64,000 nt of DNA from Microtetraspora fusca (GTDB taxonomy: Bacteria > Actinomycetota > Actinomycetes > Streptosporangiales > Streptosporangiaceae). Both the position numbers and the translations under genes were made by a program. The DNA lies in the NCBI RefSeq assembly GCF_001570365.1, contig NZ_BBYK01000038.1:170787-234786 (forward strand), given 5' to 3'. The notes under the pieces were generated by a model. The model saw only the letters and a list, made by a program, of their open reading frames with translations, searched no databases and was not told the origin of the DNA. Of the stretch, positions 3,185-52,796 are shown in pieces. Each line of letters starts with the position of its first letter. Position 1 is the first letter of the stretch.

Positions 3185-4928
3185 AGGTCGGGTGGCACAG
3201 CCGCCGGGCCAGCGCCGAGAGGAAGACGTCGATGATCTGGCCGGGCTGCTCGGCCACGTAGAGCTGGCCGTTGGTCACCGAGACGATCTCGTTCAGGGCG
3301 TTCCTGTCGGCGCCCGCGCCGAAGGCGACCACGATGATCTGCACCGGCCGCTCGGGGTCCCACTCCGCGCGCAGCGCCTTGACCAGCTCGGCCCGGGAAA
3401 GGCCCTCCCCGTCGTCCTTGCCAGCGGTGAGCAGGAGCAGCGAGTTGTTCATCAGGGGGTCGTAGTCCCTGGACACCTCGCGGAAGCCGGCCAGGATCGA
3501 GTCGTACAGGGAGCTGGTCCGGCCGGGGAGCGCGCGGATGCCGTCCGCGATCCGGAACAGACTGGTCCTGCGGATCTCCTGTCCCGAGTCGGGCTTGGCG
3601 ATCGAGCCGAGCCTGACCAGCTCGCGCTCGTCCGCCCGTCCGGCGAGGTGCCGGGCGAACTCCCACACGCCGATGGAGGTCTCGTCCGGGAACATCCGGA
3701 TGCCGATCTTGGCGGCCTCGATCGCCACGTCGAGCCGGGTCGGGCCGCCCGCCCTGATCGGCTCCGCGGTCTCCTTGGAGACGTCGGCGAGGACCAGGAT
3801 CCTGGTCGGCGGCGCCAGCCTGCTCCAGGCCTCCAGCGCCTCGTCGATGACCTCCGGGGTGATCGAGGGGCGCGGGTCCGGCGCGTCCGCCGGGATGTCC
3901 GGGCCGACCGGGAACGGCGGCTCCCTGCCGTCCGCGGGGCGGAAGCCGTCGCGGCGCATGGCCTCCTGCGTCTCGGCCGAGCGCAGCCAGCTCGCGAACA
4001 GCCGCGATCCCTCCGCCCGGTCCGGCTCCGCCGAGGTCACGACGTACGGATAGTCGAGGGTGATCGTGCCCTCCTTGGGGTGGAGGGCGACGGCGGGCGC
4101 GGCGCCCGCCACCTGGTTGTGCGCCCACACCGACTGCTCGGGGACGACCACGACCGGGCGCGACCAGAAGCCGGGGGCGTCGACGGCGCCGAGCATGCTG
4201 CGGTAGTCGGGGGCGGAGCCCGCCTGCGCCATCCGCACGAAGGCGGTGAGCTGCTTGCTCGCGTCCGGTCCCGTCCCGACGATGTCCCGGGCCGCGGCGA
4301 CGGCGGCGATGCCCGCGCCGGAGACCGAGGGGTCGGGGACGCGGACGACGTCCGGCTCGCGCTCCGTGGGCTCCAGCCGGCCCCGCACGGTGGCGGGGAA
4401 GAGCATGTCCCAGCTCATCGCCGTGCCTCCGGCCGCGAACCGGTGCGCGAGCGGCCGGCTGGTGGCGAACACCAGCGGAGACGTGGCGACGACCGTCTCC
4501 CCCGACGCGACTCCCTGCGCGCCCTGCTTGCGGGCCAGCCGCACCCAGGCCGACGAGTCGGCGATCCAGCCGTCCGGACGGCGCGGCAGGACCCCCGCGC
4601 GGTCACCGATCAGGGTGCGCAGCACGGGGGCCGGCGGCTGCTCGGCCACCTGGACCTTGACGCACCGCCCGTCCACCTCGGCCCCGCTCTCGTTGAACAG
4701 CCGGGCCGCGTCCATGACGGGCGGCGCGATGTCCACCGCGGCGGCCACCGCGACCACGACCGGGTCGCGGGAAGAACACGTTCCCGGCAGTGCCCCCACG
4801 AAGCGGAACACCATGCCGACCAGCAGGAGCGCCATCGCCACGGACGCCGTGAGGAGCGTGTTCCGCAGCGGGGGGCGCGGCTGGTCAGCGGGTGTCGCGG
4901 CGCGGTGACGTCCGTACGGCACGGGCAT
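3165..4928 (-). CDS. Substrate-binding and von Willebrand factor A domain protein
   Basis: About 587 residues with an N-terminal membrane anchor (TLLTASVAMALLLVGMVFRF), so the bulk is outside the cell. The first half resembles a periplasmic solute-binding fold (FNESGAEVDGRC, GTAMSWDMLFPATVRG, DYPYVVTSAEPDRAEGSRLFASWL). The second half, after about residue 365, is a VWA domain (RILVLADVSKETAE, DETSIGVWEF, NSLLLLTAGKDDGEG). The metal-ion-dependent adhesion site is degenerate: DxSxS reads DVSKE and the usual TDG reads TAG. This architecture is common in actinobacteria and its substrate is unknown. I prefer ATG 4928 because GAGAGGGG precedes it closely; a GTG at 4952 would add 8 residues. The gene sits between fbiB and fbiC, but nothing in it suggests an F420 role. 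Confidence 0.8.
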   Translation of the reverse strand: MPVPYGRHRAATPADQPRPPLRNTLLTASVAMALLLVGMVFRFVGALPGTCSSRDPVVVAVAAAVDIAPPVMDAARLFNESGAEVDGRCVKVQVAEQPPAPVLRTLIGDRAGVLPRRPDGWIADSSAWVRLARKQGAQGVASGETVVATSPLVFATSRPLAHRFAAGGTAMSWDMLFPATVRGRLEPTEREPDVVRVPDPSVSGAGIAAVAAARDIVGTGPDASKQLTAFVRMAQAGSAPDYRSMLGAVDAPGFWSRPVVVVPEQSVWAHNQVAGAAPAVALHPKEGTITLDYPYVVTSAEPDRAEGSRLFASWLRSAETQEAMRRDGFRPADGREPPFPVGPDIPADAPDPRPSITPEVIDEALEAWSRLAPPTRILVLADVSKETAEPIRAGGPTRLDVAIEAAKIGIRMFPDETSIGVWEFARHLAGRADERELVRLGSIAKPDSGQEIRRTSLFRIADGIRALPGRTSSLYDSILAGFREVSRDYDPLMNNSLLLLTAGKDDGEGLSRAELVKALRAEWDPERPVQIIVVAFGAGADRNALNEIVSVTNGQLYVAEQPGQIIDVFLSALARRLCHPTCPGSAG

Positions 4929-48791: not shown

Positions 48792-49571
48792 TCAGAGCGC
48801 TCTGGACAGCCGGGCCTCCACCTCGCGATAGCGGGCCACGGGGATCAGGTGCACGCCGTCGAAGGCGCCCGAGTCGCGGATGCGCAACACCTGCTCGCAC
48901 GCGGCCTCGACCCCGGCGAGCCGGTCACCGGCCACGCGCTCCACCAGCTCGGCGGGGATGTCGATGTCCGGGATCGCGGCGGACAACCGGCGGGCGTGGT
49001 TCTCACTGGCGATGACCATCACCCCGGCGTAGACCGGCACGTCCACCGGGTTGGCCTCGCGCCAGCGCAGCAGCGCGTCCAGAGAGAAGCTGACCTGGGC
49101 GAACACGAAGTCGGCCGCACGCTTCCAGGCGGGCAGGGGGCGCAGCCCGGCGGCGGTGCCGACCCGGAAGGCGGGGCCGCCCGCGAAGGCCGGGTCCTCA
49201 CTGAGCGAGCGGACCTCCTCGATCATGGAGCGAACGGTGAGGTCGCTGGTCCGGTTGCCGGTCGTGGGCTTGTCGCCGTATACGAAGAGGAACTGGTCCA
49301 CCCCGTAGGCCGCCGCGGTGAGCAGGTCCCGGCGGAAGCCCAGCAGGTTGCGGTCGCGCGAGTTGAGGCAGGCGATGCTCCTTCCGCCCATCGCCTGGAC
49401 CTCGTGGGCGACGGCGACGCTGGACACCGTGGCCCGGCCGATGTGGTTGTCCGGGATCAGGAAGGAACCGGCGATCTGGCTGAGCGTGCCGATCTGGTGG
49501 CGGACGCGCGTGAGGTCGGGACGTGTCGGCGGCTCGATCTCGCAGACGACCTCGAAGGGGCGATCAGTCAT
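48792..49571 (-). CDS. Methylenetetrahydrofolate reductase family protein (MetF-like)
   Basis: 259 residues from ATG 49571; the frame is open to 49688 but those codons lack similarity. The TIM-barrel blocks are FEVVCEIEPPTRPDLTRVRH, SSVAVAHEVQAMGGRSIACL (where MetF has the folate and FAD contacts) and DQFLFVYGDKPTTGNRT, equivalent to the ALRGDPP region. C-terminal DIPAELVERVAGDRLAGVEA also fits. It is shorter than MetF (about 290). It may reduce methylene-H4folate or a related C1 carrier; many actinobacteria have such a second, divergent copy. No methionine or folate gene adjoins it. Confidence 0.7.
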   Translation of the reverse strand: MTDRPFEVVCEIEPPTRPDLTRVRHQIGTLSQIAGSFLIPDNHIGRATVSSVAVAHEVQAMGGRSIACLNSRDRNLLGFRRDLLTAAAYGVDQFLFVYGDKPTTGNRTSDLTVRSMIEEVRSLSEDPAFAGGPAFRVGTAAGLRPLPAWKRAADFVFAQVSFSLDALLRWREANPVDVPVYAGVMVIASENHARRLSAAIPDIDIPAELVERVAGDRLAGVEAACEQVLRIRDSGAFDGVHLIPVARYREVEARLSRAL

Positions 49572-49854
49572 GCCGCCAAACCTACGGAAGTCATGATCTC
49601 CGGGCCGGGCGTTTCGATGAACGAGATCGACTCGAGGTCGGTCGAACACCGGCTGTCGCCCCGTGAATATGCGCCGAGCGGAGTTCACTCCCGCACCGAA
49701 CGGCTCCCGATCTCCGTCGGCGAGTACCGGCCCCGCTGGGGCTCGATGCCACCGAAGCTCGCGGAGACCCCGTCCCGTAACGAGCCTCGGGCGTTTTCGT
49801 GCCGTGCGACATCACCACGTCAAGGCTCTGCGCTCTGGCGGTTTCAGCAGTTAC

Positions 49855-51981
49855 TCAGTGTGATTCGACGACGGTCTCGTGAAGACTCATGGTTGTTTCT
49901 TCCGGTGACAGACCGGTGTATTTTCCGGCGAAGGCCAGGATGTCCGCAGCCAGGGCGCGTTCTTTGCTCGCGGGAGAGGCGGCATGGGCGGTGTCGGGTT
50001 CTCGGCGCATGAGGATCGGCCGGTCACCGCTGGTGGCATGTTGGAGGGCCGCGCACATTTTGGTGACGTGGGCTTCCCCCGTCTGTAGATCGGTCACCGC
50101 GCCGGTGAGAAGGAATGCGGGATAGGGAACTCCCGGCGTGACGTTGTGGTAGGGGGAGTATTCGAGGAGCCATCGAAGTTCTTCGGGTCGGGAGGCGCTA
50201 CCGAATTCATCCGTCCATGTGCATCCCAGGCCGAATTTTTCGTAGCGCACCATGTCGCACAGCGGGCCCTCGGCGATGACCGCGGCATACAGGTCGGGTC
50301 GCCGCATGGCCGCGGCGGTGACCAGGAGTCCGCCGGCGGACTGGCCATAGATCGCCAGTTGGTCGCGAGTGGTCCGATCGGTATCGATGAGCCAGGTCGC
50401 GGCGTCGTTGAAGTCGCTGATCGCGCGGTGTTTGTACGGTCCGCGGCCGGCATCGTGCCACTGTTGGCCTTCCTCTCCGCCTCCGCGTACACAGGCGACC
50501 GCGTAGAGGCCGCCGGCGCCGACCCATGCGGCCGCCAGAGGGAAGAACCATGGGCGCATCGGCATGCCGAAGCTGCCGTAGCCGTACAGGAGGGTGGGTC
50601 GGGGACCCTCATGTTCTTCAGCCGAGGTGAACAGGAACAGCGTGATCTCGGTGCCGTCGGCGGCGGGATAGCGGACGCTGCGGCTGCGGATTTCCGCGGT
50701 GTGTCCGGCTGTCGTGGCGCCGGTTTCCTGTTCCGTCGTCCCGCTGATCGCGTCGTAGCGATAGATCGTCGGAGGGGTGGCCACGTCGCAGTAGCTGAAC
50801 CACGCGTGACGTCCGTGCGGGACGTTTGTCCGCAGGGACGACACGACGCCCGCGCCGGGAAGGGGCAGACCGGTGAGCAGCCGGCCCGTGTCCAGGTCGT
50901 GCAGTGTCAGGGTGGAGGTGCCGTGGCGGGCGCGTGCCACCAGCAGGAGGGGCCGCGGAAGTGCCGGGTCGTCCAGGACCAGGCACTCGTCCAAGGGCGC
51001 CTGCGGATCTTCGGCGACCAGCGTGCGCCAAGCGGCCGGGTCGGTGTCGTGCAGGCGCGCCGTACAGATGCGGCCACACGGGGCCCGGTAGTCGGTGACC
51101 AGCAGCAGATTGCCGTCCGGGAGGAAGCGTGGGAGAACCCGGGCGCCTGTGGCGCGCCCATCCACGATCTTGACGAAACCCGGGGCTTCCGGATCGACGA
51201 GCTCGGCCACGTACACGTCGTTCGGTGAGGCGGGCCCGGCCATCGCGGTGATCGCCAGATAACGGCCGTCGCCGCTGACCGTGAGCCCGTAATAGTGGTC
51301 CGGGGCGTCCTCGCCGCCGAACACCACCGCGTCGGCCTGCCAGGGCGTACCGATCCGGTGCAACCTCACCCGCCGCTGCAGACGCATGTCGCCGGGGGCC
51401 AGCTCCTCGTCGGGAACCCGGCTGACGTAGTAGAACGCGTCCCCTCCCGGCAGCCAGGCGAGTGAGGTGTTACGGGCGCGCGGCAACGGCCCGTCCACCG
51501 CTTCCCCGGTACGCACGTCCAGCACCGTGATGTCGCTGCCTGGCTGCTCGGCGACCTCCATCTGGACGGCCACGCGTTCGCCCTCGCGCGACGGCCACCA
51601 GGTGTACAGCCCGGTGTGGCCGGACGGATCGATCACTGCTGGATCGACCACCACACGTCTGTTCCCCTCGGCGTCGACGACGAGCAGGCGCCGTTGCTCG
51701 TCCCCACGGAGCTGCTCGGCGAGGAACATGACCGGACCACGCGCCATCGGCGGCTCGGACACGCCGAAGGATGACACCTGATCCAGCAAGGACGCCCACG
51801 ATCGCGTCTCCGGCCGTCCTTCGCGATACGCGCCGAAAAGACGATCCTGGGCGGCGGCCCAATCCCGCACGCGCGCGTCATCACCGTCTTCCAGCCACCG
51901 GTACGGGTCGGAAACCGGGAATCCGAACAGATCCTCCACCACATCGCTACGCCGAGCGGCAGGGTAAGAAAACCGCGCCAT
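49855..51981 (-). CDS. Prolyl oligopeptidase (S9A), candidate processing enzyme/macrocyclase of the adjacent peptide
   Basis: 708 residues, the full length of prolyl oligopeptidase, with no signal peptide, so cytoplasmic. The N-terminal cap shows DVVEDLFGFPVSDPYRWLED; a seven-bladed propeller occupies about residues 75-425; the hydrolase domain follows (TLLYGYGSFGMPMRPWF). The catalytic triad is Ser548 in IYGQSAGG, Asp631 in AVTDLQTGEAH and His666 in REPDTAHAAS, with spacing like porcine POP and fungal POPB. The enzyme cuts after proline in short peptides; relatives POPB and PCY1 also macrocyclise RiPP cores, and FlaP removes a lanthipeptide leader. It lies 84 bases after a 31-codon peptide gene with two prolines, separated by a hairpin. 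ATG has only GGGGGGCG upstream. Confidence 0.9.
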   Translation of the reverse strand: MARFSYPAARRSDVVEDLFGFPVSDPYRWLEDGDDARVRDWAAAQDRLFGAYREGRPETRSWASLLDQVSSFGVSEPPMARGPVMFLAEQLRGDEQRRLLVVDAEGNRRVVVDPAVIDPSGHTGLYTWWPSREGERVAVQMEVAEQPGSDITVLDVRTGEAVDGPLPRARNTSLAWLPGGDAFYYVSRVPDEELAPGDMRLQRRVRLHRIGTPWQADAVVFGGEDAPDHYYGLTVSGDGRYLAITAMAGPASPNDVYVAELVDPEAPGFVKIVDGRATGARVLPRFLPDGNLLLVTDYRAPCGRICTARLHDTDPAAWRTLVAEDPQAPLDECLVLDDPALPRPLLLVARARHGTSTLTLHDLDTGRLLTGLPLPGAGVVSSLRTNVPHGRHAWFSYCDVATPPTIYRYDAISGTTEQETGATTAGHTAEIRSRSVRYPAADGTEITLFLFTSAEEHEGPRPTLLYGYGSFGMPMRPWFFPLAAAWVGAGGLYAVACVRGGGEEGQQWHDAGRGPYKHRAISDFNDAATWLIDTDRTTRDQLAIYGQSAGGLLVTAAAMRRPDLYAAVIAEGPLCDMVRYEKFGLGCTWTDEFGSASRPEELRWLLEYSPYHNVTPGVPYPAFLLTGAVTDLQTGEAHVTKMCAALQHATSGDRPILMRREPDTAHAASPASKERALAADILAFAGKYTGLSPEETTMSLHETVVESH

Positions 51982-52016
51982 AAACGCCCCCCGATGCGTC
52001 GCCCCGCTATAAAGGT

Positions 52017-52052
52017 CGAGGTACTGCGGCCTGTACGCACCGCAGTACCTCG
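52017..52052 (-). terminator. Perfect 13-bp hairpin between peptide gene and prolyl oligopeptidase gene
   Basis: CGAGGTACTGCGG at 52017-52029 pairs perfectly with CCGCAGTACCTCG at 52040-52052 around a 10-base loop. It starts 13 bases after the peptide stop codon and ends 35 bases before the prolyl oligopeptidase ATG. With no U-run it is best read as a partial terminator or RNA-stabilising element that would let more peptide than enzyme be made, a common layout in RiPP operons. Confidence 0.65.
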
Positions 52053-52065
52053 ATTCGCTCAGCGG

Positions 52066-52161
52066 CTATGACTGGCCGCGGAGAATGTCTGCCTGCCAGG
52101 CGCGTGCATCGCCAACGCGGCTAGTCGGAGTGCTCCCGGAATAGGGCAGGTATCCGTTCAT
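52066..52161 (-). CDS. 31-residue putative RiPP precursor, MSDIN/cycloamanide-like
   Basis: A short gene with GGGAGG five bases before its ATG. The peptide can be read in three parts: leader MNGYLP, core YSGSTP, and follower TSRVGDARAWQADILRGQS. Fungal MSDIN precursors (amatoxins, cycloamanides) have the same logic: a ten-residue leader ending LP, a core of 6-10 residues ending in P, and a follower with VGD and LLTRG. Their processing enzyme POPB is a prolyl oligopeptidase; one is encoded directly downstream here. The only two prolines are those bounding the core (residues 6 and 12). Too small to score as a family without a search. It could instead be a regulatory leader peptide. No modification enzyme is adjacent. 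Confidence 0.7.
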   Translation of the reverse strand: MNGYLPYSGSTPTSRVGDARAWQADILRGQS

Positions 52162-52796
52162 GCAAGCCTCCCGGATTCGACGATTCGCCCGGAATGGGCG
52201 ATTACGACAACTATATCTCCACACCTGGATCAAGAAAGGCAGGCGCCACCCCCGACAGCCGGCGCCGGTCCTCCCGGCTTTTCCGCGCGTGCGGACCGAA
52301 AAGCCGACCTACATATCCGCTATCTTCCTGGCAAGATTTCCCGCAAAAGAAAAACGCATACGGGAATGCCGCGTGAAGATCGATCTCACGCAAAAGTTAC
52401 TCGGAGCCTTTCGAGATAGATCCCAGGACTGACGGAGTCCTCATATCGCGAGACCAAGAGCAATCAAGGGTCACCGCGAGCCCCCTTGCCGACGTCGGAG
52501 ACATGGGCAAGGGGCTCGCGCCAGGATCGACGGGACCGAGCCCCCTCTCCCGCCCCCCTCCTCGGGACATGCCGGCGGCGAGGGGACGCTTCGTTCACAT
52601 CGAAGAGATCACACGCGGTCGCCCGGCCCCTTCGGGGCAGACACCATCCGGCGGTGTGTGATCAGGCCGCCAACGAAAATGGCTCGCTCATGGACATGAG
52701 CAGCGGTTACGGTTGCGGCCGTCTCGGATCACTCCTCGCTGCTTTCGGTACTTCCATGGAACAGCGACGGAAAAGAACAGAAGCGTGGAGGCGCCC
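52162..52796. other. Gene-free 635-base stretch with hairpins, promoter region of the peptide gene
   Basis: The first 250 bases are clearly lower in G+C than the window. I see no credible gene on either strand: frames at 52160-52432 (+) and 52211-52393 (-) lack ribosome binding sites and coding-like third positions. TATAGT at 52210-52215 (minus) could be a -10 for the peptide gene. Hairpins: CGGCTTTT/AAAAGCCG (52275-52306), AGGACT/AGTCCT near 52430, and a 15-bp stem with one bulge (52475-52520). Confidence 0.5.
52475..52520. terminator. Strong hairpin in the gene-free region
   Basis: CGCGAGCCCCCTTGCC pairs with GGCAAGGGGCTCGCG over 15 bp with a single bulged C and a 15-base loop. It could isolate the peptide promoter from other transcripts; there is no U-run. 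Confidence 0.4.

Follow-up and report, generated by a model that had tools for sequence, protein, structure and literature searches.

A gene of 31 codons, encoding the peptide MNGYLPYSGSTPTSRVGDARAWQADILRGQS, is located on the minus strand at positions 52066 to 52161 of the window, i.e., of the whole 64,000-nucleotide stretch of Microtetraspora fusca DNA that was analyzed. The open reading frame (ORF) ends in a TAG stop codon and is preceded by the ribosome-binding site GGGAGG (52167 to 52172, minus strand), which is similar in most relatives. Three parts can be distinguished in the peptide, all on the same strand: the leader MNGYLP (codons 1 to 6; 52144 to 52161), the putative core YSGSTP (codons 7 to 12; 52126 to 52143), and the follower TSRVGDARAWQADILRGQS (codons 13 to 31; 52069 to 52125), a putative recognition tail. 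In M. fusca, the peptide has no prolines other than P6 and P12, which bound the six-residue core. Downstream of the peptide ORF, after 84 bases and also on the minus strand, lies the gene of an apparently dedicated prolyl oligopeptidase (POP) of 708 amino acids (49855 to 51981). It matches the Pfam families Peptidase_S9_N (PF02897; 1e-55) and Peptidase_S9 (PF00326; 2.9e-41) and has the features of an S9A POP, namely, the propeller and hydrolase domains, an intact catalytic triad (S548/D631/H666), and the S1 tryptophan (W589), with Q633 at the place of the canonical active-site arginine. An earlier note on this DNA had described the short ORF with its ribosome-binding site, the two bounding prolines, and the full-length POP with its triad, all of which were recovered here. 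A conserved hairpin (52016 to 52053, minus strand) separates the two genes. The POP gene is followed on the same strand by a divergent methylenetetrahydrofolate reductase-like gene (48792 to 49688; Pfam MTHFR, 5.7e-11), which was not seen to recur at as many as 3 of the 16 loci compared.

The peptide was searched for with a 12-row profile in 341 Streptosporangiaceae genomes, and the same 341 genomes were searched for POPs. At an E value of 0.01, 56 genomes gave a peptide match: 45 had strong matches (E below 1e-13), 3 (G071, G248, and G258) had divergent peptides in the corresponding location, and 8 had weak partial matches elsewhere (E 6e-4 to 0.0099) that were left out of the count. The peptide is thus found in 48 of 341 genomes, M. 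fusca included, although divergent copies may be missed because at most 20 to 23 candidates per genome were scored in the peptide profile searches. POPs of the same clade (70 to 100% identity) were likewise detected in 48 of the 341 genomes, and 47 genomes have both. The two exceptions are G161, in which the clade POP runs off the contig end, and G158, in which the peptide is found beside a decayed POP remnant with large deletions; in G156, a further POP piece that partly overlaps the first lies on a different contig. POPs in general are far more widespread, as 308 of the 341 genomes possess one at E 1e-150 or better, and those below the clade share about 43 to 48% identity among the matches listed. 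The peptide has 31 codons in all 48 cases, 47 of them starting with ATG and 1 with GTG, and its distance from the POP gene ranges from 64 to 116 bases (81 to 84 in 34 of 47 loci). In G158 (locus L086, positions 4000 to 4600), where the POP gene has been reduced by deletions, the peptide ORF and the hairpin remain, and W22 has been replaced by R; judged from its sequence, this locus appears to be a natural loss of the gene pair in progress.

No peptide was detected outside the family in a sample of the class, where the 6 of 394 genomes that match at E 0.001 all belong to the Streptosporangiaceae. A phylum sample of 386 genomes contained no convincing peptide outside this family; three weak partial matches were obtained there (E 7.5e-4 to 0.0022), one of which has an internal stop. 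Clade POPs were absent outside the family from 374 class genomes; two genomes of the class sample pass the POP cutoff of 1e-182 with 47 to 48% identity. Of these two, G120 was examined, and its POP has the canonical arginine. A profile of 22 peptide members had no match in Pfam and NCBIfam, nor did the M. fusca peptide in PHROGs and PADLOC, and none was obtained in plasmid sequences. When the DNA upstream of 12 housekeeping POPs was passed through a loose filter, 11 small ORFs were obtained at 7 loci, none of them similar to the peptide by eye. The earlier note had conceded that similarity by chance could account for so short a peptide. This concern is answered by its recurrence upstream of the same POP clade, and the peptide ORF and the POP gene form a conserved two-gene unit in the Streptosporangiaceae.

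The alignment of peptides beside homologous POPs that the earlier note had proposed as a check revealed a conserved LP leader (L5 in 47 and P6 in 48 of 48) and a conserved ILRG follower around a variable core. Invariant in all 48 peptides are P6, P12, R15, G17, R20, and L27, and Y7 is present in 45. In the ungapped register, I26, R28, and G29 are each found in 45 peptides and L27 in 48; the three divergent peptides, whose alignment is shifted by one residue, are the exceptions, and in most relatives the follower ends in ILRG[EQ]S. Position 22 is occupied by W in 44, by Y in 3, and by R in G158 (same register). An additional Pro14 is present in 19 of the 48 peptides. The synonymous and nonsynonymous changes, also named in the earlier note as a possible check, indicate coding selection: by the pairwise Nei-Gojobori method on 44 of the 48 peptides (the three divergent ones and that beside the decayed POP were left out), pN/pS over the whole peptide was 0.39, with 0.36 for the leader, 1.15 for codons 8 to 11, and 0.27 for the follower. 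In addition, changes were mapped onto a rapidly built tree of 46 POPs (G156 and G161, which are cut, and the decayed G158 were left out), 12 of whose 43 inner branches are weakly supported, with position counts made on 43 peptides. Codons 8 to 11 accounted for 44 of the 114 amino acid changes, and none occurred at P6, Y7, or P12. The binomial probability of such an excess in codons 8 to 11 is about 1.5e-11, under a null of equal rates that ignores unequal constraint. Follower codon 16 (52114 to 52116; I/V/T/F/S/L) underwent 13 changes on the tree, as frequent as those of the core codons. The relative whose POP is closest (93% identity) differs from M. fusca in all four of codons 8 to 11 and in 4 of the 27 others, and relatives with more divergent POPs (70 to 73%) have the cores VEAYRP and DAAYRP with both prolines and their spacing kept. 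Altogether, the 48 peptides contain 15 different cores, all of six residues. One of them, YSSTGP, found in relatives, is isomeric with the M. fusca core YSGSTP, for which the calculated mass is 592.249 Da as a cyclic and 610.260 Da as a linear hexapeptide; cyclic YRDSTP would have 719.324 Da. The segment between the prolines, hypervariable and of constant length, thus behaves like the core of a ribosomally synthesized and posttranslationally modified peptide (RiPP), and its flanks behave like a recognition sequence.

The POPs of the clade share their domains, triad, and S1 tryptophan with ordinary bacterial POPs, and the triad and W589 are kept in all 46 clade POPs compared; however, they differ from ordinary POPs around the active site. 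The canonical arginine (R643 in porcine numbering) is replaced by Q in 43 and by L in 3 of the 46, whereas R is present in 12 of 12 housekeeping POPs and in three aligned PDB sequences (1yr2, 2bkl, and 3iuj). Furthermore, the Asn after the catalytic Ser is changed to A or G in all 46, the Gly before the His to Ala in 45, and the Gly after the His to Ala in 46, and the 12 housekeeping POPs have the canonical residue at each of these sites. The three structures, all of bacterial POPs, are also the nearest solved ones by sequence, while PCY1, OphP, and GmPOPB score much lower. In GmPOPB the arginine is R663, termed highly conserved in POPs, and the variant R663Q had reduced activity yet formed the most cyclic product among the mutants listed, as described in PMC5648786. 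The loss of the arginine therefore fits a specialized enzyme, but that change by itself does not tell a cyclase from a hydrolase.

Fungal MSDIN precursors have a variable core between conserved flanks. The peptide described here has the same layout of a short leader ending in Pro, a short core ending in Pro, and a follower, and its parts measure 6, 6, and 19 residues compared with 10, 8, and 17 in the GmPOPB substrate (PMC5648786). The GmPOPB fungus, too, is described as an organism in which the specialized POP occurs along with another POP, and GmPOPB binds the recognition sequence, with no detectable binding of the leader alone in the account given (PMC5648786). Unlike MSDIN/POPB, the present system is a bacterial two-gene unit whose POP has lost the arginine equivalent to GmPOPB R663, and for which cyclization is plausible. 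The earlier note had proposed a bacterial MSDIN-like system, of which the conserved pair, the RiPP-like core, and the MSDIN-type layout have held up, and sequence homology to MSDIN precursors has not been found. The VGD on which the fungal likeness of the follower had partly been based is strain specific, D18 being present in 1 of 48 peptides and G in 40, so that homology to MSDIN by way of this motif was rejected; the other motif named, ILRG, is the conserved one. When the 22-peptide profile was run against PDB chains at E values up to 10, no MSDIN substrate was among the matches (the presence of MSDIN chains in that file is unconfirmed); the best of them were unrelated (E 1.1 to 1.7).

In the plant PCY1 pathway, a separate protease removes the leader. 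By sequence, PCY1 is more distant from the clade POP than 1yr2 (6.6e-65 versus 9.3e-98). It resembles the enzyme proposed here in being a member of the POP family that works on a core and a follower, and OphP is set against GmPOPB and PCY1, two enzymes to which the follower is important, in the account of PMC12235650. Among bacteria, POPs have been described as removing the leader in the lanthipeptide (FlaP) and clavusporin (MpcP) pathways, and ProTM32 has been proposed to do so for a P450-cross-linked biarylitide (PMC12951456 and PMC10885120, the latter describing FlaP). These systems likewise link an S9 POP to a bacterial RiPP precursor; in contrast to them, none of the genes shared by more than 3 of the 16 loci compared here is a tailoring gene, and the follower is long and conserved. 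No bacterial MSDIN-like system was found among the titles and abstract openings listed for the open literature, which contains few of the subscription journals.

Judged from the genes, then, the evidence consists of a conserved pair, coding selection, a hypervariable core between invariant prolines, a conserved intervening hairpin, and an intact triad within an altered active site. The architecture and its evolution fit what defines a RiPP, namely, a precursor with a core and a recognition sequence and a dedicated enzyme. We consider it probable (about 0.7) that the peptide is a RiPP-like precursor from which its dedicated POP excises YxxxxP. The 31-residue precursor would consist of the leader MNGYLP, a variable core of six residues with Pro at its end (YSGSTP in M. 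fusca), and the conserved 19-residue follower. The follower would bind the specialized POP encoded by the next gene, which is likely to cut after P6 and P12 and would thereby release the hexapeptide in linear or head-to-tail cyclized form. Closure of the ring by the POP is plausible, at odds somewhat below even. Tentatively, the system may be a convergent bacterial two-gene counterpart of MSDIN/POPB, in which a single POP with an Arg-to-Gln/Leu exchange both cuts and macrocyclizes, giving the Streptosporangiaceae a diverse set of cyclic hexapeptides, mostly cyclo(YxxxxP). The product would often differ between species, as expected for a signal or defense metabolite.

A narrower account, which overlaps with this one, is that the POP only hydrolyzes and yields as its product the linear YxxxxP or the conserved C-terminal stretch of 19 residues, for instance as a pheromone that varies between species. 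The sequence evidence for it is identical, and the leader removal described for FlaP and MpcP and proposed for ProTM32 (PMC12951456, PMC10885120) offers precedent. However, a recognition-like follower corresponds to the layout of the macrocyclizing GmPOPB and PCY1 as described in PMC5648786 and PMC12235650, and simple hydrolysis would hardly need so conserved a follower. Hydrolysis alone has somewhat less than an even chance.

The hairpin bears on a different account. It extends to up to 15 bp, has no U-tract, and is present between the two genes in 48 of 48 loci. Pairing was counted in 47 of these (46 distinct aligned rows), L102 being left out for its long insertion: 94.4% of the cells pair, and 16 double changes are seen in 5 pairs. 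None of 500 shuffles reached the observed value for the share of paired cells, for double-change cells, or for the covariation score; the number of pairs with a double change was reached by 16 of 500 and that of further pair types by 53 of 500. Slid versions of the alignment scored lower on every measure. Part of the stem, with four pairs that never vary, is more constant than pairing alone requires, which may reflect protein binding or processing there. The hairpin had no match in Rfam up to E 1. A genome-wide repeat or multisite operator was rejected, as 4 of 5 genomes have one site each; the strict hairpin pattern finds none in the fifth, whose own locus hairpin has one base different. Upstream of the peptide's ribosome-binding site, a conserved promoter-like block is seen at 52186 to 52235 and in relatives, with the majority sequence GTTTATcGATCgc..GGC.cGGGgA and a variant form in the window and in the nearest relative. 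In the window, this block is followed by the short inverted repeat CGCCC-attcc-GGGCG (52186 to 52200), and a sigma-70 scan gave no match.

A short ORF followed by a conserved hairpin could also be read as encoding a regulatory leader peptide, whose translation or ribosome arrest would control the POP through the hairpin and which would have no role as a product. The short ORF of constant length with its good ribosome-binding site, the compensatory changes in the hairpin before the POP start, and a conserved C terminus close to the stop codon are all in line with this. On the other hand, the hairpin lacks a U-tract, and no terminator-like site coincides with it in the window. Attenuation by alternative RNA pairing was rejected: when the ORF was compared for pairing with the 3' arm of the hairpin (48 loci) and with the 5' arm (46 loci), no signal exceeded the shuffles, and even in the best case 11 of 100 letter-shuffled sequences paired as strongly. 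Control by a leader peptide would also leave unexplained both the invariant P6 and P12 around a segment with a pN/pS of 1.15 and the altered active site of the POP, and it is improbable. In the preferred reading of a precursor processed by its POP, the hairpin probably permits an excess of precursor over enzyme. That the peptide is instead a small protein partner of the POP (an inhibitor, activator, or chaperone) and no substrate is highly improbable, since a hypervariable stretch between invariant prolines, the cut sites of the POP class, would be unexpected in a binding partner, in spite of the near-perfect genomic pairing (47 of 48 peptides and 47 of 48 POPs) and the conserved C terminus.

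Several points weigh against the excision of YxxxxP by the POP or temper it. The variability of the core is limited because most of the 15 cores are polar and resemble one another, with YRDSTP, the commonest, alone found in 16 of 48 peptides, and follower codon 16 is as changeable as the core codons. An ordinary POP could simply degrade such a peptide. The arrangement was met in a single bacterial family in the class and phylum samples. Of the genes at 16 loci of 8 to 17 kb, the POP and the frames that overlap it were the sole widespread ones. A TetR-like ORF recurs in 3 and a response-regulator-like ORF in 3, no gene for transport, immunity, or tailoring is shared by more than 3 of these loci, and a wider gene cluster was rejected. 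The co-loss at the G158 locus, where the POP has decayed and W22 has been lost from the peptide, is counted as support for the preferred reading.

Gene finders may drop precursor genes this short. If the proposed processing is true, the pair would represent a new and very small class of bacterial RiPPs, with one precursor, one protease, and no tailoring enzyme seen. If cyclization is true as well, the POP would be the first bacterial POP macrocyclase, as far as the open literature searched shows, and the short natural substrate with its 15 natural core variants would be useful for making cyclic hexapeptides. The Streptosporangiaceae would then have arrived independently at the solution used by fungi and plants.
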